37,041 nucleotides of DNA from Pirellulales bacterium (GTDB taxonomy: Bacteria; Planctomycetota; Planctomycetia; Pirellulales; JAICIG01), in assembly GCA_035533075.1 (NCBI GenBank), contig DATLUO010000296.1:1-37041 (forward strand), read 5' to 3'. Below the pieces are notes generated by a model. It was not told the DNA's origin. It ran no database searches and saw nothing but the letters and a program-made list of their open reading frames with translations. This document shows, in pieces, positions 4,168 through 16,068 of this stretch. The translations under genes and the position numbers were made by a program. Position 1 is the first letter of the stretch. Each line of letters begins with the position of its first letter.

Positions 4168-4208
4168 TTGTACACGAACAAACTAATCTGCAATAAAGGG
4201 TGGCGACC

Positions 4209-7200
4209 ATGCTGGCCATGCTGGACTACTTATTGTCCTTTTTCTTCTGGTGCCCCAGGCGCGAGCAAAGGCGGCAGGTTCCCCAGCTTCGGATCGTGCG
4301 GGTCGAATCGCTCGAACATCGTCGCCTGCTCTCGATTGATTGGATTGGAACAGCCGGCGACCACCTGCCGGCAACACGGGGAAACTGGACGGCCGACGCG
4401 GCACCGAGCGCTCGGGACGGCGGCATGCACGCGACTGTCGCTAAACGCCCCGCGCATGATCGCGGCGCCTTTCATACGTCGCGACGACGGACGACCAGAT
4501 GTCGCCGCCGCTATACGAGACTGGAGATCCTCGAGGATCGGACCCTTTTGAGTTCGGACGCCTTTACAAACTCGGCTGGCGGCGAATGGAGCACGCCCTC
4601 GAATTGGAGCCTTGGACGTGCTCCGTCGACAGGCGATGATGTTAGCATATCTGGCCTTCTTCCTGGGAAAGCGGTCACATTAGATCCATTTGCGGACGTC
4701 GCAATTGATAATCTGACTTTGGATTCATCGTTGAATCTTCAAGGAGTGCTGACGGTCACAGGGGAAATATCGGGGAGCGGCTCCCTCAACCTTCAGGGTG
4801 AATTACTCGATGCCACCATTGACCAGGGCATCAGCGTTCGGGGGCAAGATGGCAGTACACTCGATGCGGTAACCCTCGACGGAAACATGGTAGTCGCCGG
4901 AGGGGGATTCGTTAGTACCGATTCCGTAATTGTGCTCGACGGCCTGACGCTCGGCGGCGCAATCACATTGGGGGGGGCGAACCTCTGGGGAGGGCTTGTC
5001 TTCGCGGGGACGCAGACACTCAGCGGCGACGGCTCTGTCAGTCTCGCGGCGACACTCTCCGGGGAGAGCCTGATTAAAGCGATCGCGTGGCCCACCCGAT
5101 CAGGGAGCACCCTGACCATCGGCCAGAATATCGTAATCGGCGGCCAAACGGCATTTTTTCTTGGTGACATAATCGACCAAGGTACCATTGGCTTCGATGG
5201 AAGTAGTCTTGGATTCGAGGTTCAAACTCTTTCGGTCGCGCCGTCTGGCAGTTTTTCTCTGACCAATGGGGCTAGCGCGACATTCGTCGATGACCTCGAC
5301 AACGCGGGCACGGTGTCGCTCAGCACCACAAGCAATCTTTACGTCGGGGGAAGCTATACCCAATCGGCGACGGGAACTCTTCAGCTTCAAATTGGCAGTG
5401 CGCCCTCTGCCAATCAGTTCCCGCGCGTTGATGTGTCATATACCGGTACGCTAGCTGGAACCTTACAGGCAACGTACGTAAATGGCTTTACACCTTCGGC
5501 AGGGCAGTCGTATTGGGTATCCGCTAATCAGCGATTGGTCGGCGCGTTCGACAATGTCTTTGGGGGCCAAGTCGCATACGTCGCCACGCAGGTCTATCTC
5601 AACATATCAAGCGCCCAGGTCCGCCCGACGCTATCTTTCGATCCGCAGGGCAACGGCGTCGATGTTGGCTACATTGTCGATGGCGCCTTACTTCCAGAGA
5701 CAACGACTGTCGATCTGTACTGGGCTTCCGGAAGTGCATTCGCAGACGTCATTGGCGAGGCGATCCCAGGTGCGAGCCAAGAGGTGGCGGAAGGAAGTCC
5801 CGTTGGCACATACGGGCCGTTTCACATTCATGCGACCACGCTCGGGTCCCGTCCTACCGGTGCCACTTACTTGCTTGCCGTCGCCGACCCCAAAAACCTT
5901 CTAGGGAACTTCTCGGAGGAAGAAAATGTTAAGGCCCTCCGACTTCTCCAACTGCCAGGTGTATTCGTAGCGAACGCCTCCACCACCGATTCCAAGAACT
6001 TGACCGTCAACTACACGGTCACGGGCAACGACAACCAGACGCCCTTCGACCTCCGCGTTTATCGCTCGAACCAGGCAACCTACGACCCGAACAACGACCA
6101 GCAAGTTCTCGTCGCACAGGTGCCGATCCAGGGGAGTGACGCCGCCGATGGCACGCACGAGATCGTGATCGGGCCGGCTGGACAAAACGCTTTCTCCGTC
6201 ACCCGATCACTAGCGCCCGACCCGACGCACGAATACGTGATTGCCACCGCGGATGACGACGGCTCATTGAACCCTGGGGATGCTAACAATACGCCCCAGG
6301 AGGAGTTCCGCATCCTTCTCGTCGCTGACGTCACCCACGGGCTGACACTGAACGGGATCGGCAATAAGCTTTCGATGGCACTGTTTAATAATGCCATCAC
6401 CTCACCGACGCAGGTGTGGGTGGACACGATGGCTGGCAACCTTGCCAATGACAACTACGATGCTGCCTTTGGCTTCCACTGGGAGCAAATCAGCAATAAA
6501 ACTTTGCCTGCCCCCGGTATCTTACCGCTCGGCGTCGGGGGCGACCTTGCCGAAATCGCGGGTTATGAAATGGCCAAGCAACTCATCACGGAAGTCAAAA
6601 GTTCAACGCCCATAAACGTCCCGGCATCTCTCTCTACCTACACGACGTCCACGAATGTCGACGGTACCCGCGACCCGAATTGGGAGCAGCCCGGTCCTAA
6701 CGACGTCGTCGACGTACAGTTCATCGGCCACAGTCGCGGTTCCGTCGTCATTAGCCAAGCATTAATGGATCTGAGCGACACTAATCCCGATACAACGTTC
6801 GATATTGCCAATGTGCCACGGTCTCTGTCCGCCGGCTTTGACATGATGACGATGCTTGACCCGCACCCCGCTAACCCTATCTATGGCGCATTGAGCGCGG
6901 CCGGCTTGGGCGGAGGCGTGGCCCCTGGCACCTCTATTCTCACGTCGTTGGCGAAGCGAGCCGGGTCTCTTGTGGCCGCCGCCGCTGTGGAGTCGTTCCA
7001 AGTTTCGGCCGACGATAAGAATGTGGTCATTCCCAGTAACGTCCAAGCCGTGGAGGAGTATTATCAACAGTCCCCGACGGCCTATTTCACTTCGGGTGAC
7101 GAGAGTTACGTGAACCTCTGGGGCGAATCGCCGGCGCCGGACCAAATCAAAAATGATTCGGGACTGCCGCTGACACCGAACGTAAATGTACGCAACGTGT

Positions 7201-10200
7201 CTGGGCCGGGCGTCGGGCATATGGAAATTCACCATTACTACGACAGCCAAGTTGTTGAGTTTCAAGGAGCGCCAAACGCACCGAACGACTTTCCCGCCAC
7301 CTTGACCAAGCTCGGCCTGAAACAATTTGGCTCAGCTTCGCAGTCGACGCCGGCGCTCAGCCTGTCCAGCCTGTCATTACTAAGTACGCCCGGAGCGGCC
7401 CCGCAGTTGATGGCCGTGAAGCCGTCGGGCAACGTCGTTGCTGGTGCGCCGTTCGGTCTCGATATTTATGCTTTGGATCCTGATGGGAATGTCGATTCGA
7501 CCTTCAACGGCAGCGTCACGCTTGGTTTGGGCAATGGCCCAAGTGGCAGCGCGCTGGGGGGTACGCTGGTAGCTTCGGCTGTCAACGGCGTAGCCGAGTT
7601 CTCCGGATTGACGCTTAACAAGCCGGGTGTTGCCTATACTTTGCAGGCGACAGCGAACGGCCTGACGTCCGGAGTGACGCTCCCATTCGACGTGACCGAC
7701 GACCAATTGGTAGTCACGAGCCAACCTCCCTCCAATGTGACTGCCGGAAGCGGTTTCGGCCTCGTCGTTTCCGCCGAGAATGCCGCGGGGAGCGTAGACA
7801 CCTCGTTCAATGGTCGGGTAGCTGTTGCTGTGAGCCTGGCCAGCACGAACAGCATTTTGGTCGGGACCATGATTGTAACGGCCGTGGACGGCGTTGCGAC
7901 CTTCTCCGGTTTGACGCTCGGCGGTCCGGGCTTCTACGAACTGGCACTGACCACCAACGGGGTCGGGAGCGCAACAGCAAACTTCTTCCAGGTCAACGCG
8001 GGGACGGCCACCCAGCTTGTGGTTACGGCCGAGCCGCCAAATGCCGTCAGCACCGGCGCCGGCTTTTCCTTGAGCGTCGCAGCGGAAGACGCTTACGGCA
8101 ACGTCGATCCAACTTACAACGGCCCCCTCACCCTTTCGCTCGCTGCCGATCCGAGCGGCGCGATGCTAGGAGGCACCACGACGACAATGGCCGTCAACGG
8201 CCTGGCTTCTTTTTCCGGACTGACGATCGGCAGTCCGGCCAACGGCTACACAATCGAGGCGGCCAGCACCGGACTGACCGCCGCAACGACGAACGCCTTC
8301 GACACGGCGCCGCTGGGCCAAGCAACGCAACTCGTGGTCACCACTCAGCCCGCGGGTAGTGTCGCCGCCGGGAGCGGCTTTGGGCTGGCAGTCACGGCCG
8401 AGGACAGCTTCGGCACGGTTGATGCCAACTTCAACGGCAGTGTGACGGCCGAGAATCCAAATGGAGGGAATCCGTTGGCCGTGGTCACGGCCGTGAACGG
8501 CGTGGCGACTTTTTCGGGCCTTACGTTGGACCAGGCAAGTCCGATCTATTCGTTGTCGGTCACCAGCAGCGGCCTGCTCGCTGCTTCGACCAACCCGTTC
8601 GAGGTGACCAGCGAGCCGGCTACCAAGCTGGTGCCGTTGGATCCGCTGCAAGTCAATCCAGGAGCAGAGTTCGACTTCCAAGTGGTTGCCGAGGATCCGC
8701 TGGGGAATGTCGATCCAACCTTCGACGGCCCAGTGACCGTCGCCTTGGGCAGCAATCCGCGCGGCGGCACCCTGGGCGGCACCCTCACTGTTATGGCCGT
8801 GAATGGCGTGGCGGATTTCCCTGACCTGACAATCAACAACGCGGGCAATGGCTATACGATCCAGGCTGGCAGCACCGGCCTGACAAGCGGCAGCACCGAT
8901 CCGTTCTTCGTGAGCGAAGATCAGTTCGTGGTGACGACCCAGTCACCCAGCGTCGTCACCATCGGTCAAAGCTTTGGCTTGACGGTCACGGCTGAGGATC
9001 TCGCCGGCAACACGGACAGCGCCTTTAGCGGCGCCGTCACGCTCAATCTGCTGAATTTCGGGGCTAACGCAGCCGTGCTCGGCGGGGCACTGACAGCCAA
9101 CGCCGTGAACGGCGTAGCGGCCTTCTCCGGCCTGACTATCGACCAACTGGGCACGTACGCCGTGTTTGCCGAAAGCAGCGGTCTCGGCGCAGCCGCCACG
9201 AACTCGTTCAGCGTCATAGCAAGTCCAGTTTCGTCAGTCGCCCCATTGCCAGCCACCGAAGCCTCCACGACGTTCGACGTTAATTGGTCTGGAAGCGACG
9301 TCGGTGGTCCGGGAATCGCCAGCTACGACGTTTACGTCTCCGACGACGGCGGTCGCTTCACTCTGTGGCAGACCGACACCACGGCGACCTCGGCCCAATT
9401 CGGCGGGCTCAACGCGCACACCTATAGCTTCTACAGCGTCGCCACCGATAACGTCGGCAACCAGCAAGCCGTGCCGAGCGCCGCCCAGGCCACGACCACG
9501 ATCGTTGCGACGCCCCCCGGCAACGTGTATGTGGCCAGTTCGTTTTACGATCAAACGACGGGCGTGATTACCGCCGCGCCGATCGTCGGCGACACGGTCA
9601 ACTGGCTGGCTAGTGGCCAGTACGCCGAGATCGATAATCTGACGTTTGGCGCAACCGCCTTCACGAGCGTGCAGACCGCAGTCGATGCCGTCGCCTTCGG
9701 GGGCACGGTTGACGTGGCCGCCGGAACCTATAGCGAGACCGTCAGCATCAGGCAGCCGTTGACGTTGCAAGGGGCGGAAAATGGTGCCGTCACCACGCTT
9801 CGGGATCCGACGACCGGAGCGGACACCGGTATCACGGTCAATACCGCAAGCGGCACGGTGGACATTCAGGGGTGTACCGTCACCGGCTTCATGACCGGCG
9901 TCTCGGTGACCGCGGGCACCGTGGAACTGAACGACGACACGATTTCGGGCAACAACAACCCCAACGGCGACGGTGGCGGGATCTACAACAATGGCACGTT
10001 GATGGTGGCCGGTAGCACGGTCTCCGGCAACTCCGCCGGCATCGGCGGCGGCATCTACAACAACGGCACGCTGACGGCCAGCCGCAGTACGGTCTCCGGC
10101 AACTCCACCGCCGTCGTCAGCGGCGGAAGCGGCGGCGGCATCTACAACCACGCGACGCTGACCCTGACCGATAGCACGATCTGCGATAACTTTGCGAGTA

Positions 10201-13142
10201 CCCTCGGCATCGGCGGCGGCATCGACAACGGCGGAGGAACGCTCAAGATTGAGCAGAGCACGATCTCCGGCAATTCGGCCTTCTCCGGCGGCGGCATCGT
10301 CAACTTCGCCACTCTCACGCTCGCCGATAGCACGCTCTCCGGCAATGCGGCGACGGTCGGCGCCGGTTTGGAGAACGATATGGGCACCGTCACCGTCACC
10401 AACAGCAGCATATCGCGCAATGCAGCCAGCGGCAGCTTCGCTCATGGCGGCGGCATCCTAAACGCCGGCACGCTCACGGTCACCAACAGCACCATTTCAG
10501 GCAATGCAGCCAACGCAAGTTACGGCACCGGCGGCGGCATCTACAACCTTGAAGGCTCGGCCACGCTGACAAATAGCACCATTTCGGGCAACTCTGCCAA
10601 CGGAAGCTACGCCAGCGGCGGAGGTGTTTTCAACGCCAGCACACTTACGCTCACCGACAGCACTCTCGCCGGCAACGCGGCAGATTATCAAGGCGGCGGC
10701 ATTTACAATCTCGAGGGCGCGGCCACGCTCGCCAGCAGCACGGTCTCCGGCAACTTGGCTGGTTCCGAGAGCAATGCAGGCGTCGGCGGCGGAATCTATT
10801 CCGTTTCGGCATACGGGGGCCAAGTGAATGTTGCCAACAGCGTCCTCGCAGGAAACACCGTTCTCGGGGCCGCCGGCAGCAATCCCGACGTAAGCGGACC
10901 TTTCGGTACGACCGATCAAGACTTGATTGGCGTGGTGGGCGACGCCACGGGATTCACGTCGGCCGGTGCCGCGATCAACGGCAACATTGTCGGCAGGAGC
11001 GCGGCGCCCGTCGATCCGTTGCTCGCACCGTTGGGCGATTATGGCGGCCCAACGCAGACCATGGCCCTGCTGCCCGGCAGCCCGGCGATTGACGCTGGCG
11101 ACAACAACCCGCCCTCGACATTTCCCAGCACGCCCAGCACCGACCAGCGCGGTTTCGCACGGACCGTGAACGGCACGATCGACATCGGGGCCTTCGAATC
11201 GAGCGGATTCACGCTCGTCAAGGGCATGGGAACAAATGGCGACAATCAGTCGGCGGACATCGGCGCGGCGTTCGCCAGCCCGCTGGTGGTCGCGGTTTAT
11301 GCCAATAACGCGAACGAGCCGGTCGACGGCGGTCAGATAACCTTCGCGGGCCCGGAGAGCGGCGCGTCGATTGATCCCAATCCCGTCACCACCGTCGTCA
11401 GCGGTGGTGTCGCCCAGGCCGTGCCGACTGCGAATGAAACTGTCGGCGGGCCGTATTCCGTCACCGCGTCCGCGGCCGGCGGCAAAGACACCGTTCTCTT
11501 CGCCCTCACCAACGTTGAACCACTGACGATCGTCAGTCTCGGTCCGATCGCCACCGACCCGCGCAACGTCTACATGGCCTCCGACGACGTGACGTTCTCC
11601 GAGCCAATCGACCTGACCAACTTCAACTACGGCGCCTTGTCGCTCACGCTCAACGGCAGCGCTAATCTCATCAATAGCGGCGTGACCATCTCGTTGGTCA
11701 GCGGCACGACCGACACCTATCGCATCGCAGGCCTGGCAAGCGTGACGACGACTGACGGCACCTATGTCCTCTCCGTCGACGCCAGCAAAGTGCAAGACTC
11801 CAACGGCAATTACGGCACCGGCACCGCCAACGTGACCTGGTTGATGGACACCACGCCGCCCACCAGCAAGGTCAATCCGTTGCCGGCAACGGAAACGTCG
11901 TATTCGTTCACGGTTTCCGTGACGGGCAGCGACCCGCCGCCTGCGTCCGAGCCGGGAATCGCCACCTCGGGCGTCGCTTCCTACGCGATCTACGTGGCCA
12001 TCGACAACGGCGCGTTCGCACTCTGGACCACCCTTCCCGCCAACAATCCTTCGGCCACCTACTACGGCGAGGCCCAGCACCACTACTATTTCCGCAGCGT
12101 GGCGACCGACGCGGCGGGCAACATCGAATCGAAGCAGGTGCTCATCGAAGCCGGCACCTACGTGCCCGACTTGACGCCTCCGGTCACGAAGGTTGCTTCC
12201 GAAAGCTTCAATACCACAACCGACCTGTTCACGTTGAACCTATCGGGCAGCGACGCCGGCGGCAGCGGCCTGGCCACGTTCGACGTTTTCGTGCAGGTCT
12301 ATACCGGCGGCATCGGCTCGACCGTGCAGCAGATCGCCACGGCGGCGGCCGGTTCGCCCGACGCCAACGGCAACTATTACGGCGTGGCCACCTATCAGGT
12401 GCCGAGCAACCTGCTCGACGGCAACCAACACACCTATCGCTTCTACAGCACGGGTATCGACGGGGCGGGCAACATCGAGGTGGCCCACGCCAGCCCCAAC
12501 GACGTTGAATCGACTCAAACCCTGTCACCTCCGCCCTCTTTGGCCGTGTCGAGCCTCGTCATCGAGAAGGGGTTGGTTGAGCGGTCGTTCATCCGCTACA
12601 TCGACATCGGCTTCAACGAGAGCGGGGCGGCGTTGCAAAGCCTGATCGACAACAACGACATCCGCCTGATTCAGCATCCGCTGAGCGGCGTGATTTCACC
12701 CAGCGACCCCACGGTGCCGCTGGCTGGCCTGCTCAAAGTGATCGACGACGCCAACGGGATCGCCGACATCATCGAAATCGACTTCGGTGCGCTGGCACTG
12801 GGCGGGGCCGCCGACACGCCCGGATTGGCCTTTAGCACCTATTGGTCCGAGTTGGCGGCGGGCGACGGCTATTACGAGCTCGACATCGACACCGGCGGCA
12901 GCAATCCCGCCAATTGGTCCACCGCCGCCCACGAGTTCTTTTATCGGCTGTTGGGCGACGTGAACGGCGACCATATCGTGAATGGCGCCGACTTGACCGC
13001 CATCACGGCGGCCTTGGGGCAAACCGGCCCCTACATCAACGCCGATGTCAACGGCGATGGCACGGTGAACACCATCGACAAGCTGCTCGCCCTGAAATCG
13101 CAAAATCGTGCTTTGAATGCCGGCCTGGAACTTGACGGCTAG
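4209..13142 (+). CDS. Giant exported surface protein with beta-helix, hydrolase-like, Ig-like, choice-of-anchor Q and dockerin domains
   Basis: About 2,977 residues. Residues ~30-44 (VESLEHRRLLS) and again ~102-118 (LEILEDRTLLS) are Planc_extracel-type N-terminal motifs, so the protein should be exported. In order: beta-sandwich/beta-helix (~120-460); an alpha/beta-hydrolase-like domain (~700-1030) with nucleophile elbow GHSRG (Ser842), Asp884 in MLDPHP and His1004 in GHMEIHH; six ~100-residue Ig-like repeats (~1063-1670, each with a VVT.QP start and AVNGVA.FSGLT core); a fibronectin-like segment; a right-handed beta-helix with many GGGIYN / STISGNSA units (~1914-2200); a choice-of-anchor Q region (~2209-2333, PAIDAGDN, DQRGFAR, DIGAFES); more Ig-like domains; and a C-terminal pair of dockerin calcium loops (DVNGDHIVNGADL at 2917, DVNGDGTVNTIDKL at 2946). 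The ATG at 4209 has AAAGGG eight bases upstream; GTG 4200 overlaps that site and ATG 4218 matches the paralogue's start. Substrate and partners are unknown. Confidence 0.9.
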   Translation: MLAMLDYLLSFFFWCPRREQRRQVPQLRIVRVESLEHRRLLSIDWIGTAGDHLPATRGNWTADAAPSARDGGMHATVAKRPAHDRGAFHTSRRRTTRCRRRYTRLEILEDRTLLSSDAFTNSAGGEWSTPSNWSLGRAPSTGDDVSISGLLPGKAVTLDPFADVAIDNLTLDSSLNLQGVLTVTGEISGSGSLNLQGELLDATIDQGISVRGQDGSTLDAVTLDGNMVVAGGGFVSTDSVIVLDGLTLGGAITLGGANLWGGLVFAGTQTLSGDGSVSLAATLSGESLIKAIAWPTRSGSTLTIGQNIVIGGQTAFFLGDIIDQGTIGFDGSSLGFEVQTLSVAPSGSFSLTNGASATFVDDLDNAGTVSLSTTSNLYVGGSYTQSATGTLQLQIGSAPSANQFPRVDVSYTGTLAGTLQATYVNGFTPSAGQSYWVSANQRLVGAFDNVFGGQVAYVATQVYLNISSAQVRPTLSFDPQGNGVDVGYIVDGALLPETTTVDLYWASGSAFADVIGEAIPGASQEVAEGSPVGTYGPFHIHATTLGSRPTGATYLLAVADPKNLLGNFSEEENVKALRLLQLPGVFVANASTTDSKNLTVNYTVTGNDNQTPFDLRVYRSNQATYDPNNDQQVLVAQVPIQGSDAADGTHEIVIGPAGQNAFSVTRSLAPDPTHEYVIATADDDGSLNPGDANNTPQEEFRILLVADVTHGLTLNGIGNKLSMALFNNAITSPTQVWVDTMAGNLANDNYDAAFGFHWEQISNKTLPAPGILPLGVGGDLAEIAGYEMAKQLITEVKSSTPINVPASLSTYTTSTNVDGTRDPNWEQPGPNDVVDVQFIGHSRGSVVISQALMDLSDTNPDTTFDIANVPRSLSAGFDMMTMLDPHPANPIYGALSAAGLGGGVAPGTSILTSLAKRAGSLVAAAAVESFQVSADDKNVVIPSNVQAVEEYYQQSPTAYFTSGDESYVNLWGESPAPDQIKNDSGLPLTPNVNVRNVSGPGVGHMEIHHYYDSQVVEFQGAPNAPNDFPATLTKLGLKQFGSASQSTPALSLSSLSLLSTPGAAPQLMAVKPSGNVVAGAPFGLDIYALDPDGNVDSTFNGSVTLGLGNGPSGSALGGTLVASAVNGVAEFSGLTLNKPGVAYTLQATANGLTSGVTLPFDVTDDQLVVTSQPPSNVTAGSGFGLVVSAENAAGSVDTSFNGRVAVAVSLASTNSILVGTMIVTAVDGVATFSGLTLGGPGFYELALTTNGVGSATANFFQVNAGTATQLVVTAEPPNAVSTGAGFSLSVAAEDAYGNVDPTYNGPLTLSLAADPSGAMLGGTTTTMAVNGLASFSGLTIGSPANGYTIEAASTGLTAATTNAFDTAPLGQATQLVVTTQPAGSVAAGSGFGLAVTAEDSFGTVDANFNGSVTAENPNGGNPLAVVTAVNGVATFSGLTLDQASPIYSLSVTSSGLLAASTNPFEVTSEPATKLVPLDPLQVNPGAEFDFQVVAEDPLGNVDPTFDGPVTVALGSNPRGGTLGGTLTVMAVNGVADFPDLTINNAGNGYTIQAGSTGLTSGSTDPFFVSEDQFVVTTQSPSVVTIGQSFGLTVTAEDLAGNTDSAFSGAVTLNLLNFGANAAVLGGALTANAVNGVAAFSGLTIDQLGTYAVFAESSGLGAAATNSFSVIASPVSSVAPLPATEASTTFDVNWSGSDVGGPGIASYDVYVSDDGGRFTLWQTDTTATSAQFGGLNAHTYSFYSVATDNVGNQQAVPSAAQATTTIVATPPGNVYVASSFYDQTTGVITAAPIVGDTVNWLASGQYAEIDNLTFGATAFTSVQTAVDAVAFGGTVDVAAGTYSETVSIRQPLTLQGAENGAVTTLRDPTTGADTGITVNTASGTVDIQGCTVTGFMTGVSVTAGTVELNDDTISGNNNPNGDGGGIYNNGTLMVAGSTVSGNSAGIGGGIYNNGTLTASRSTVSGNSTAVVSGGSGGGIYNHATLTLTDSTICDNFASTLGIGGGIDNGGGTLKIEQSTISGNSAFSGGGIVNFATLTLADSTLSGNAATVGAGLENDMGTVTVTNSSISRNAASGSFAHGGGILNAGTLTVTNSTISGNAANASYGTGGGIYNLEGSATLTNSTISGNSANGSYASGGGVFNASTLTLTDSTLAGNAADYQGGGIYNLEGAATLASSTVSGNLAGSESNAGVGGGIYSVSAYGGQVNVANSVLAGNTVLGAAGSNPDVSGPFGTTDQDLIGVVGDATGFTSAGAAINGNIVGRSAAPVDPLLAPLGDYGGPTQTMALLPGSPAIDAGDNNPPSTFPSTPSTDQRGFARTVNGTIDIGAFESSGFTLVKGMGTNGDNQSADIGAAFASPLVVAVYANNANEPVDGGQITFAGPESGASIDPNPVTTVVSGGVAQAVPTANETVGGPYSVTASAAGGKDTVLFALTNVEPLTIVSLGPIATDPRNVYMASDDVTFSEPIDLTNFNYGALSLTLNGSANLINSGVTISLVSGTTDTYRIAGLASVTTTDGTYVLSVDASKVQDSNGNYGTGTANVTWLMDTTPPTSKVNPLPATETSYSFTVSVTGSDPPPASEPGIATSGVASYAIYVAIDNGAFALWTTLPANNPSATYYGEAQHHYYFRSVATDAAGNIESKQVLIEAGTYVPDLTPPVTKVASESFNTTTDLFTLNLSGSDAGGSGLATFDVFVQVYTGGIGSTVQQIATAAAGSPDANGNYYGVATYQVPSNLLDGNQHTYRFYSTGIDGAGNIEVAHASPNDVESTQTLSPPPSLAVSSLVIEKGLVERSFIRYIDIGFNESGAALQSLIDNNDIRLIQHPLSGVISPSDPTVPLAGLLKVIDDANGIADIIEIDFGALALGGAADTPGLAFSTYWSELAAGDGYYELDIDTGGSNPANWSTAAHEFFYRLLGDVNGDHIVNGADLTAITAALGQTGPYINADVNGDGTVNTIDKLLALKSQNRALNAGLELDG

Positions 13143-13197: not shown

Positions 13198-13908
13198 ATG
13201 TCGCGCGTTCCGTTGTTTGTGGCCTTCCTGTTGATTTTAGGCGCGGCCTCGGTTGCCTGCGCTGACGTGACCCTCGACCTCTCAGCCCCCGTATTCACGA
13301 GCGCCACAAACGGCTATGTGGACCTCGACGTTCAGGGAAGTTCGATTAGCATCTTTAATCTGACGCTTCAGATTACGACCGATCCGTCGAACACGCCGGC
13401 GTATATGCTGCAATTCGTGTCGGCTGGCGGATTATACACCGGCGACAGCACCTTCAACGATCCGAGCTACGTTTTTGGCCCAAATAGCGTCGCGTCCTAT
13501 AGCCTCGACTCGTTGGTCGGCGGCTTCGGCAATACTACCGCGGTAGGCGGCTACCAAACCACTCTCAACGTTGGTGATTCGGCACTCGACTCAAACTTCA
13601 ATCCCCAGGACGTGCCGATTACCAGCGCGAACAACCTTCTGGCACGCTTGGAATTCGAGCTGCCAGCAAATGCCGCGGCGGCCAAATTCGACCTGGGCCT
13701 CACGAGCGCGTCGTTCTTGTCGTCAACCAACGTCAGCATTCCGATTGACTCTAGCATCCCCATTTCAGAAACCCTTAGCGTGGGCACTCCAATTGCGAAC
13801 GTGGTGCCCGAACCGGGCACGTTCGGCATGCTGTTTATTGGCATGACGGGCCTGCTGTGCATGAAGCGAAAGCGGTTGTTCGTCCATGGCGAGCCAAGCA
13901 ATTCCTGA
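13198..13908 (+). CDS. PEP-CTERM anchored exported protein, cohesin-like body possible
   Basis: The 236-residue protein has a clear signal peptide (MSRVPLFVAFLLILGAASVA, likely cut after ACA at ~22) and a C-terminal PEP-CTERM sorting signal: VPEPGTF, a hydrophobic stretch GMLFIGMTGLLCM, then KRKR. It should pass the inner membrane and be processed by an exosortase. The body is beta-rich; NLLARLEFELPANAAAAKF followed by DLGLTSASF recalls the late strands of cohesin-type domains, but this is a by-eye resemblance only. GAGGAG lies about 10 bases before the ATG. The gene starts 55 bases after the dockerin-bearing giant gene in the same direction, so the two are probably co-transcribed and may act at the same surface. 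Confidence 0.88.
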   Translation: MSRVPLFVAFLLILGAASVACADVTLDLSAPVFTSATNGYVDLDVQGSSISIFNLTLQITTDPSNTPAYMLQFVSAGGLYTGDSTFNDPSYVFGPNSVASYSLDSLVGGFGNTTAVGGYQTTLNVGDSALDSNFNPQDVPITSANNLLARLEFELPANAAAAKFDLGLTSASFLSSTNVSIPIDSSIPISETLSVGTPIANVVPEPGTFGMLFIGMTGLLCMKRKRLFVHGEPSNS

Positions 13909-14208: not shown

Positions 14209-14631
14209 GTGGTCAGTGGTTGGTGGTTGGCAGGGTGTCAGCCGTGCCTAAGGATTGAGCACCGGCCTAGCGCGACCGCCAAACGCCACTCGGCCGCGCA
14301 CGGCTGGCGCAAATTTGCGCCAGCCGATGAAACACGAGGTTTTTGCCCATCGGTTGACCTGACAGAGGGTTTTTTGGCGGCTGCTCAAATGATGTGCATG
14401 GTGGTCATCTGGATGCCTGTTATTTGAGCAATTCTTTTGTCCGTGCGGCGAAGCGGCCCGCCGGCGTTCGGCGAGGTGCGGTGAGAGGTCGAAAAAAAAT
14501 CGGTCCCAAGCCAACGGCGCGGTAGAACACAGGGAGCCACGCAGGCGGACGCCTGCAACCGATCCATCCCAAGCCAGTCGCGAGATAGAACACAAGAATG
14601 TTTTGGTTCCGAGCGGATGCCGCCGGCTTGC
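14209..14631 (+). repeat. Duplicated ~420-bp element, copy A
   Basis: Copy A matches copy B (14969-15380) along its length, through blocks such as CAGCCGTGCCTAA, GAAACACGAGGTTTTTGCCC, GAGCAATTCTTTTGT, GCCAACGGCGCGGTAGAACA and TGTTTTGGTTCCGAGCGGAT. It opens with three heptamers (GTGGTCA, GTGGTTG, GTGGTTG). Bases 14301-14326 are a perfect 26-nt palindrome around GGCGCAAATTTGCGCC. Other hairpins are TGCTCAAAT with ATTTGAGCA (14382-14430) and GCAGGCG with CGCCTGC near 14541. Toward the end, a unit of about 60 bases containing TAGAACA is repeated in tandem. It may be a structured RNA or a non-autonomous mobile repeat; neither is proven. Confidence 0.8.
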
Positions 14632-14716
14632 CAGGCGGAGGTGTACGTTGGCCGTCTACAGAACGACGCGCCCAACAACCGCTTCCGGCAGCGGGCCGCC
14701 GCTTCGCGGTCACCCT

Positions 14717-14765
14717 CCCGCTTGCGGAGCAAGCGGGCTACGTAGCCCGCTCGCTCCGCGAGCGG
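14717..14765. repeat. Three overlapping perfect hairpins
   Basis: Within 49 bases there are three perfect dyads: CCCGCTTGC/GCAAGCGGG around GGA (14717-14737), the palindrome GGGCTACGTAGCCC (14735-14748) and CCGCTCGC/GCGAGCGG around TCC (14747-14765). Their ends share bases, so only alternate folds can form at once. It lies between the two copies of the 420-bp element. Confidence 0.75.
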
Positions 14766-14968
14766 ATCGGCGGTCGGGAAGCGGCCCGCGTCGCCAGCGT
14801 CACCTTCAACGGAAAAAAGAGGATGGAAGAGCCTGCCGTGGAATTTTGGCGGGCTCCATGACGTATTGCTCGCAGAGGCGAAAAACAGCGGGCCGATGGC
14901 CGTCCATGCGCGCCCCGCGGCAAAGGAACGGGGAGGAACTTTTAGGGCGGAAGAGCGTCTAATTGTTA

Positions 14969-15380
14969 GTGGTCAGTGGTCAGTGGTTGGCAGAGTGCCA
15001 GCCGTGCCTAAAAATTGAGCAGTGGGCTGAGCGATGGGCGGTCGGTTCGCCCGCCGCGCACGGTGTAGGTAAATTTACCAACACCGGCGAAACACGAGGT
15101 TTTTGCCCATCGATTAACCTGACAGGAGGGTTTTCTGGCGGCTGCCTAAATGATGTGCATAGTGGTCGCCTGACTGCCTGCTCTTTGAGCAATTCTTTTG
15201 TGCGTGCGGCGAAGCAGCGTCGCAGCCGTTCGTCGAGCCGCGGTGAGAAGTCGCAAAGATCCGGTCCCGAGCCAACGGCGCGGTAGAACACAGGGAGCCA
15301 AGCAGGCGATGCCCGCAACCCATCCAACCCAAGCCAGTCGGGAGATAGAACACGGGAATGTTTTGGTTCCGAGCGGATGC
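14969..15380 (+). repeat. Duplicated ~420-bp element, copy B
   Basis: Copy B of the element at 14209, in the same orientation about 760 bases downstream. It opens with heptamers GTGGTCA, GTGGTCA, GTGGTTG. Its 26-nt palindrome at 15061-15086 has a different sequence (core AGGTAAATTTACC) but keeps 12 of 13 pairs, with five paired changes relative to copy A, while the flanking GAAACACGAGG is unchanged. Three TAGAACA-containing units of about 60 bases follow, near 15282, 15346 and 15405; the last lies just past the repeat end. Confidence 0.8.
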
Positions 15381-15434
15381 GAAACATCCCGAGCCAGTCG
15401 CCGAGTAGAACAGAGGAAATAGTCGCCACGATCG

Positions 15435-15647: not shown

Positions 15648-15910
15648 CGGGGCCACCGAACCCTTGGCCGTCGTCAGTGGTCCGCTGTCAGATTGACGGT
15701 GGCAGACGACGCGAAAGCGTCGCTGATTGATCTTTGACAATTGAATTTGTGCCAGTCACAAGGCGGTTTCGCGCCCCGCGTTCGAAACCGCGGCCGATCG
15801 GTGCGCACCGCGTTGAAGTGGGGCGGCCTTCCCAGGCCGTCTGCGGCGACGAGCGCGGCATACGATACCTCATGCGGTCGAGAATGACGCATCCGCGCCC
15901 GACCGACTCT

Positions 15911-15999
15911 CTGTAGGGAACGCCCTCCGTGGCGTTCCGTCGCGCGGCGGCGACGCCATTTCGCGGATCACGGAACGCCACGGAGGGCGTTCCCTACAG
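15911..15999. repeat. 30-bp perfect inverted repeat with 29-nt loop
   Basis: The arms 15911-15940 (starting CTGTAGGGAACGCCCTCCGT) and 15970-15999 are exact reverse complements around a GC-rich 29-base loop. An intact 30-bp arm pair implies recent origin or upkeep. It resembles a REP or small MITE-like palindrome; there is no coding capacity and no clear target-site duplication. Confidence 0.85.
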
Positions 16000-16068
16000 A
16001 CGTCTCATTTCCGCCCGCGTGAAGTATCCCAACGAACGGAAACCGAGCGGGCTTAAAAGCTTTTATAA

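Follow-up and report, generated by a model that had tools for sequence, protein, structure and literature searches.

A window of 37,041 nt from a Pirellulales bacterium (the whole stretch of DNA that was analysed) contains two direct copies of a sequence of about 420 bp, each with a 26-bp palindrome whose arms differ between the copies and still pair. Which molecule reads this palindrome, and in what kind of sequence does it lie? The initial annotation took the repeat for a noncoding element of its own, with a dyad selected either as an RNA stem or as a dimer-binding site. The two copies align with 82% identity and carry the palindrome at the matching place:

14209-14620, plus strand: copy A, a decayed ParB-like gene fragment (coding strand: minus) with 82% identity to copy B
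14969-15380, plus strand: copy B, a decayed ParB-like gene fragment with its coding sense on the minus strand
14301-14326, no strand: dyad A, 26 bp, 13/13 paired, probable relic of a cognate ParB-like site; 80 bits with covariance model R1
15061-15086, no strand: dyad B, 26 bp, 12/13 paired, probable relic of a cognate ParB-like site; 72.8 bits with covariance model R1
14327-14346, plus strand: conserved flank NNGAAACACGNNGTTTTTGC of copy A, 89% identity over 31 distinct relics
15087-15106, plus strand: conserved flank of copy B, on the same basis (31 distinct relics)
14541-14556, no strand: second small hairpin of copy A, GCAGGCGGACGCCTGC, seen in the sequence
15302-15316, no strand: second small hairpin of copy B, with one mismatch, seen in the sequence

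Dyad A reads CGGCTGGCGCAAA/TTTGCGCCAGCCG and its R1 score is the best in the genome; dyad B reads CGGTGTAGGTAAA/TTTACCAACACCG. Reinspection of both arms gave the same 13 and 12 pairs as the initial annotation, and the positions of the copies and palindromes were confirmed. The five positions per arm that were said to differ and still pair are there, although six differ in all, the sixth being the mismatch in copy B. The block beside the palindrome (GAAACACGAGG) shows no difference between A and B, and the second hairpin is roughly kept, both as noted before. Several other features lie close by. The short repeat AAGCCAGTCGCGAGATAGAACACAAG occurs five times within 14497-15418 (two in each copy and one past copy B, spaced by ~60 nt) and is also present at many other relic loci. 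An inverted repeat of 44 nt with zero spacer and 80% complementarity lies between the copies at 14698-14785, and a perfect 31-bp inverted repeat with a 29-nt spacer (TCTGTAGGGAACGCCCTCCGTGGCGTTCCGT) is found at 15910-16000, with variants beside many relics (L092-L098). An ORF of 2980 aa with a dockerin type I domain (4200-13142) adjoins a PEP-CTERM protein gene (13198-13908).

With copy B as query, BLAST gave 49 matches in the source genome (8.5 Mb, 296 contigs), and a covariance model of palindrome plus flank gave 79, about 50 of them strong; we put the number of palindrome copies in this genome at ~50. There are 45 distinct arm pairs in 68 copies. Among 27 distinct copies 91% of cells pair, both sides change in 7 of 10 pairs, and the covariation score, a check suggested by the initial annotation, was 0.515 vs. 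0.204 in shuffles, with none of 500 shuffles as high. The copies sit in long intergenic regions and have no consistent orientation relative to the neighboring genes, on which ground a cis-regulatory leader or 3' element was rejected. The search of other genomes, also proposed at the outset, turned up one further genome with the site in numbers, Pirellulales bacterium GZL_HY_2_bin.141 (G001; another genus of the same family), with 19 covariance-model matches. Here the site lies within compact ~165-bp units with inverted ends (AATCGCCGTAAGT), which are absent from the window copies. At the G001 loci L032, L034, L079, and L081 (~1470-1620) these units are MITE-like: the ends AATCGCCGTAAGTGCC..GGCACTTACGTCGATT are inverted, and T-runs come after a CCCCGCTGTAGCGGGG hairpin. 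The covariance model found one weak match over 194 genomes from other families of the order, and a GTDB pattern scan gave only G001 and one isolated match in Actinopolyspora, probably by chance. A DNA-pattern scan of IMG/VR for the site and a blastn search of plasmids for the repeat gave none. The arms are too variable for searches at the DNA level, and a protein search was required.

The repeat is a multicopy relic of a ParB-like gene that encodes a ParB N-terminal domain, a disordered linker, and a helix-turn-helix (HTH), and the window copies are non-coding relics that retained the dyad. Four remnants of the protein can be read in the window:

15055-15237, minus strand: ParB-like remnant of copy B, 61 residues; matched in the window at E 2e-5 (33% identity) by tblastn with intact C271
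14268-14369, minus strand: ParB-like remnant of copy A (..DGQKPRVSSAGANLRQPCA..), 34 residues; tblastn in the window, E 0.018
14241-14261, minus strand: probable HTH remnant of copy A (TGCTCAAT..TAGGCACG, compare LLNVSAR), from reading against the intact gene
15001-15021, minus strand: probable HTH remnant of copy B, from reading against the intact gene

The remnant of copy B runs from LDERLRRCFAARTKELLKEQ to VNLPTPCA, the latter being coded by the palindrome; the HTH reading frame is destroyed in the window copies. An independent noncoding element, as first described, is not consistent with these 61 residues on the minus strand. The source genome (G000) also has intact genes. Three repeat copies overlap ORFs. 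In C271, an intact ORF of 381 aa, the palindrome codes for TVGANLHPPCA, and the HTH (LLNVSARSIATASKVL) follows directly. With the C271 protein as query, its own genome proved to have another intact gene, C107 (333 aa), as well as relics at palindrome loci that contain in-frame stops; these relics read LLKE*AVRRPLCTSF..DGQKPRVSPVSANLPTPCA, in agreement with the intact gene. C271, C107, and C132 of G001 each have a perfect 13/13 palindrome of 26 bp in the same codons, with different arms. Residues 321-377 of a 381-aa ORF (L101, 798-1943) gave a weak C-terminal match to the Acb2/Tad1 hairpin domain at E 0.011, below the cut-off. The initial annotation had counted derivation from a protein gene against its proposal. 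The repeat does derive from one, now decayed; the dyad nonetheless exists, and in the intact genes it is under selection.

The protein has the architecture of the ParB superfamily: its N-terminal domain has the ParB fold, and an HTH comes next. Spo0J, Noc, ParB, and KorB were the best Foldseek matches in the PDB (probability about 1.0). A profile match to Noc/ParB was found at E 0.002 and PHROG ParB-like families were also matched, while Pfam HTH_ParB was matched below the cut-off only. A conserved DGRNRxRAC motif stands in place of the GERR motif of ParB. The AlphaFold model has a pLDDT of 84; its sole segment under 50 is residues 157-163, into which part of the dyad-coded linker falls, and the recognition helix (183-195) is the second helix of the HTH.

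The dyad lies in the linker codons directly upstream of the HTH, is 22-26 bp long, and has zero spacer. Relatives from other families of the order also have palindromes at this position, of unrelated sequence (TATTGGTGGAAAC/GTTTCCACCAATA in L148 is one), and the 80 viral relatives mostly have a palindrome of unrelated sequence at the same gene position. We took as linker window the 55-100 codons after DGR, chosen after a first look at set 1 and left unchanged for set 2. Set 1 comprised 85 non-redundant and mostly viral ORFs; the highest-scoring palindrome of the entire gene fell in the linker in 69 (11.7 expected by length) and outside it in 16. Scores of at least 12/13 were reached by 26 linkers vs. 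0 sites outside, and by 0.17 after synonymous codon shuffling of the 85 ORFs. The held-out viral set 2 was gathered with an alignment query, two single-protein viral searches having given few new loci; here the best palindrome was in the linker in 40/43 (5.3 expected). Two or three phage relatives have no dyad, and neither do three plasmid relatives encoded next to or near MvaT/H-NS genes. The plasmid ParB-like proteins L418, L421, and L422 (Azotobacter, Stutzerimonas, Pseudomonas), encoded upstream of H-NS/MvaT-type genes and free of a linker dyad, form a natural contrast group. Within 10 kb in the phages, further copies of the own site, which might have served as operators, were no more frequent than by chance (6 seen, 4.9 expected), and for this reason we call the site single. 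On viral contig L267 the site recurs ~3.7 kb past the gene start (21/22 bases), possibly in a paralogous gene. The ParA-like Walker motif KGGxGK[ST] was absent from the 80 viral loci (up to 20 kb each); with neither further site copies nor a candidate partner ATPase, a role in classical ParABS partition is not indicated, and the genes were not classed as ParABS.

Among 60 sites, 44-59 are paired at each of arm positions 4-13, where 15-40 would be expected if the arms were independent, and position 14 pairs in 23/60; as the 60 sites were picked by score these counts are inflated, and the proof is carried by the shuffled and positional controls. All or nearly all of the four pair types are used at positions 4-13. 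The dyad is read in three phases (39/16/5), so that one GCAAATTTGC core yields ANL, QIC, or KF, and there are several centres. Because the arms differ by gene, all four pair types occur, and three frames are used, we conclude that the constraint acts on the DNA rather than on the protein.

We next asked which protein residues go along with the arm bases (residue numbering is that of the C107 protein). In a scan of 222 protein columns, with the dyad-coded columns set aside, HTH residues 184, 187, and 183 had the highest mutual information with arm positions 5 and 6 (R184 for base 5; F187 and E183 for base 6). The base-6 rule was fixed on set 1 (A or F gives T6; D or R gives G6; Q gives C6) and was right for 26 held-out proteins and wrong for none; permutations gave a mean of 8.5 and a maximum of 20, and 0 of 100,000 were as good. 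Also in the held-out set, R184 occurred with G5 in 25/25 and a residue other than R184 with a base other than G5 in 11/13 (Fisher p 6e-8). Over the combined 98 sites the pairings were R184-G5 in 66/66, A187-T6 in 17/17, R187-G6 in 17/17, K187-G6 in 5/5, D187-G6 in 8/9, and Q187-C6 in 16/18. Protein pairs with ~40% identical N-domains share base 6 in 81% of cases if residue 187 agrees and in 31% if it does not. Codon overlap is not the cause of this code, since the dyad and the HTH residues are ~50 nt apart. The recognition helix of Caulobacter ParB inserts into the major groove, and changes at R173, T179, A184, and G201 switch specificity (PMC7383237). Between the two roles first offered for the dyad, the 26/26 held-out predictions from HTH residues support the dimer-binding site, strongly in the intact relatives, and the RNA stem is not supported.

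We consider it very probable (roughly 0.85) that the repeat has a ParB-like origin and that the linker dyad is the cognate, parS-like site of the gene's own protein, with relics of it in the window. The residue-base code points to physical binding of the dyad by that protein. At bases 5 and 6, each half-site would be read by recognition-helix residues 184 and 187, and a change in either residue would be accompanied by a change in both half-sites. In the manner of ParB at parS, the dimer would dock on one private site, located within the gene that encodes it. From the analogous ParB-parS, Noc-NBS, and KorB systems we infer that the docked dimer could load onto the DNA of its carrier element (phage, plasmid, or island), where it might serve in partition, silencing, autoregulation, or self-recognition.

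For the relics only, an explanation compatible with the ParB-like origin has a real chance of being correct, if a somewhat less than even one: template switching between the arms (quasipalindrome correction) may keep them symmetric without selection. Template switching is established for near-perfect palindromes. It would fit with the 31 distinct relics, which keep 92% of pairs although arm positions 4-10 are just 52-55% identical (89% in the flank), and with the frequent C6 or G6 in relic arms of this genome, where the intact proteins predict T6. It cannot account for the residue-base code or for the constant position of the dyad in intact viral genes. The symmetric diversification of the relics could come from such correction or from descent from many extinct genes.

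A second possibility, that the copies are mobile hairpins of REP/RAYT or MITE type and the palindrome a transposition signal inserted into ParB-like genes, appears unlikely. Many copies are intergenic, some pairs are inverted, the ~165-bp units of G001 have inverted ends, and one of 12 Y1 transposase matches is near a copy; the palindrome is absent from the other 11, however, and a REP/RAYT assignment was rejected as the copies do not generally flank Y1 transposase genes. In addition, ParB-like sequence lies on both sides of the dyad in the relics, and one mobile repeat cannot explain unrelated sequences at the same dyad place in viral genes. Transposition may have taken part in the spread of the relics themselves. 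That the dyad is an RNA stem of the ParB-like mRNA or of a relic transcript, held by compensatory change, is very improbable despite the strong covariation, an AAATTT centre that could form a loop, and T-runs after the hairpin in some copies, because the zero-spacer symmetry reaches the innermost bases, which change in pairs (CCC/GGG, CAC/GTG, AAC/GTT) and would be unable to pair in a hairpin, G.T mismatches on the coding strand are not above A.C (11 vs. 22; 4 vs. 25; base composition may account for the A.C excess), the arm bases track HTH residues, the relics have no preferred orientation to neighbor genes, and the Rfam search was without a match, so that a structured RNA family was rejected.

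If the dyad is the parS-like site of its own protein, the linker codons of a widespread gene class, present in many phages and some bacteria, double as the putative DNA target of the encoded protein. About 100 naturally matched pairs of protein and site come with this class, together with a readable code by which two recognition-helix residues correspond to two bases; the gene sequence alone could then reveal the target of these ParB-like proteins. The case also shows how a gene origin can be found for a repeat that had been labelled noncoding. A further proposal is tentative, and we hold it to be rather doubtful: site and reader may form one linked specificity cassette (dyad plus HTH, ~60 bp) that is swapped jointly by recombination, the private site marking the DNA of the element as self and conflict between related elements driving diversification. 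Were this true, recombination could exchange specificity as a unit.

Among known systems, ParB-parS and Noc-NBS are similar in the ParB-type N-domain and HTH, with structure matches, and in the read-out of a palindrome by the recognition helices of a dimer, which is predicted here from the sequence code. The parS site also occurs inside the parB/spo0J gene of Bacillus subtilis. The differences are that parS, with 16 bp, is conserved among bacteria and occurs in multiple copies, whereas each gene here has a private site of 22-26 bp that lies in the linker codons of that gene and has diversified together with the HTH; the viral loci have no ParA-like motif. ParB/Noc specificity is set by a few residues of the HTH region (PMC7383237), a likeness to the present proteins. 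KorB of plasmid RK2 shares the ParB-family fold and an HTH that binds a dyad (predicted here). It has many operators across its plasmid; here no second site copy was found within 10 kb. The prophage self-immunity system BstA-aba is alike in that a short DNA-based cognate element lies in its own locus and each variant has its own element, but aba is 63 bp at the gene start with terminal direct repeats, and BstA is not presented as a ParB-family protein (PMC8585504). REP, ERIC, and MITE sequences likewise have tens of intergenic copies with a hairpin, while the copies here originate from a protein gene and have no tie to a Y1 transposase. The open-access literature yielded intragenic parS, work on ParB/Noc specificity, and the aba element, and no earlier report of a self-site in linker codons. 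Relative to known ParB systems, what is new is a ParB-type self-site, as predicted here, that lies in linker codons and diversifies with its reader.
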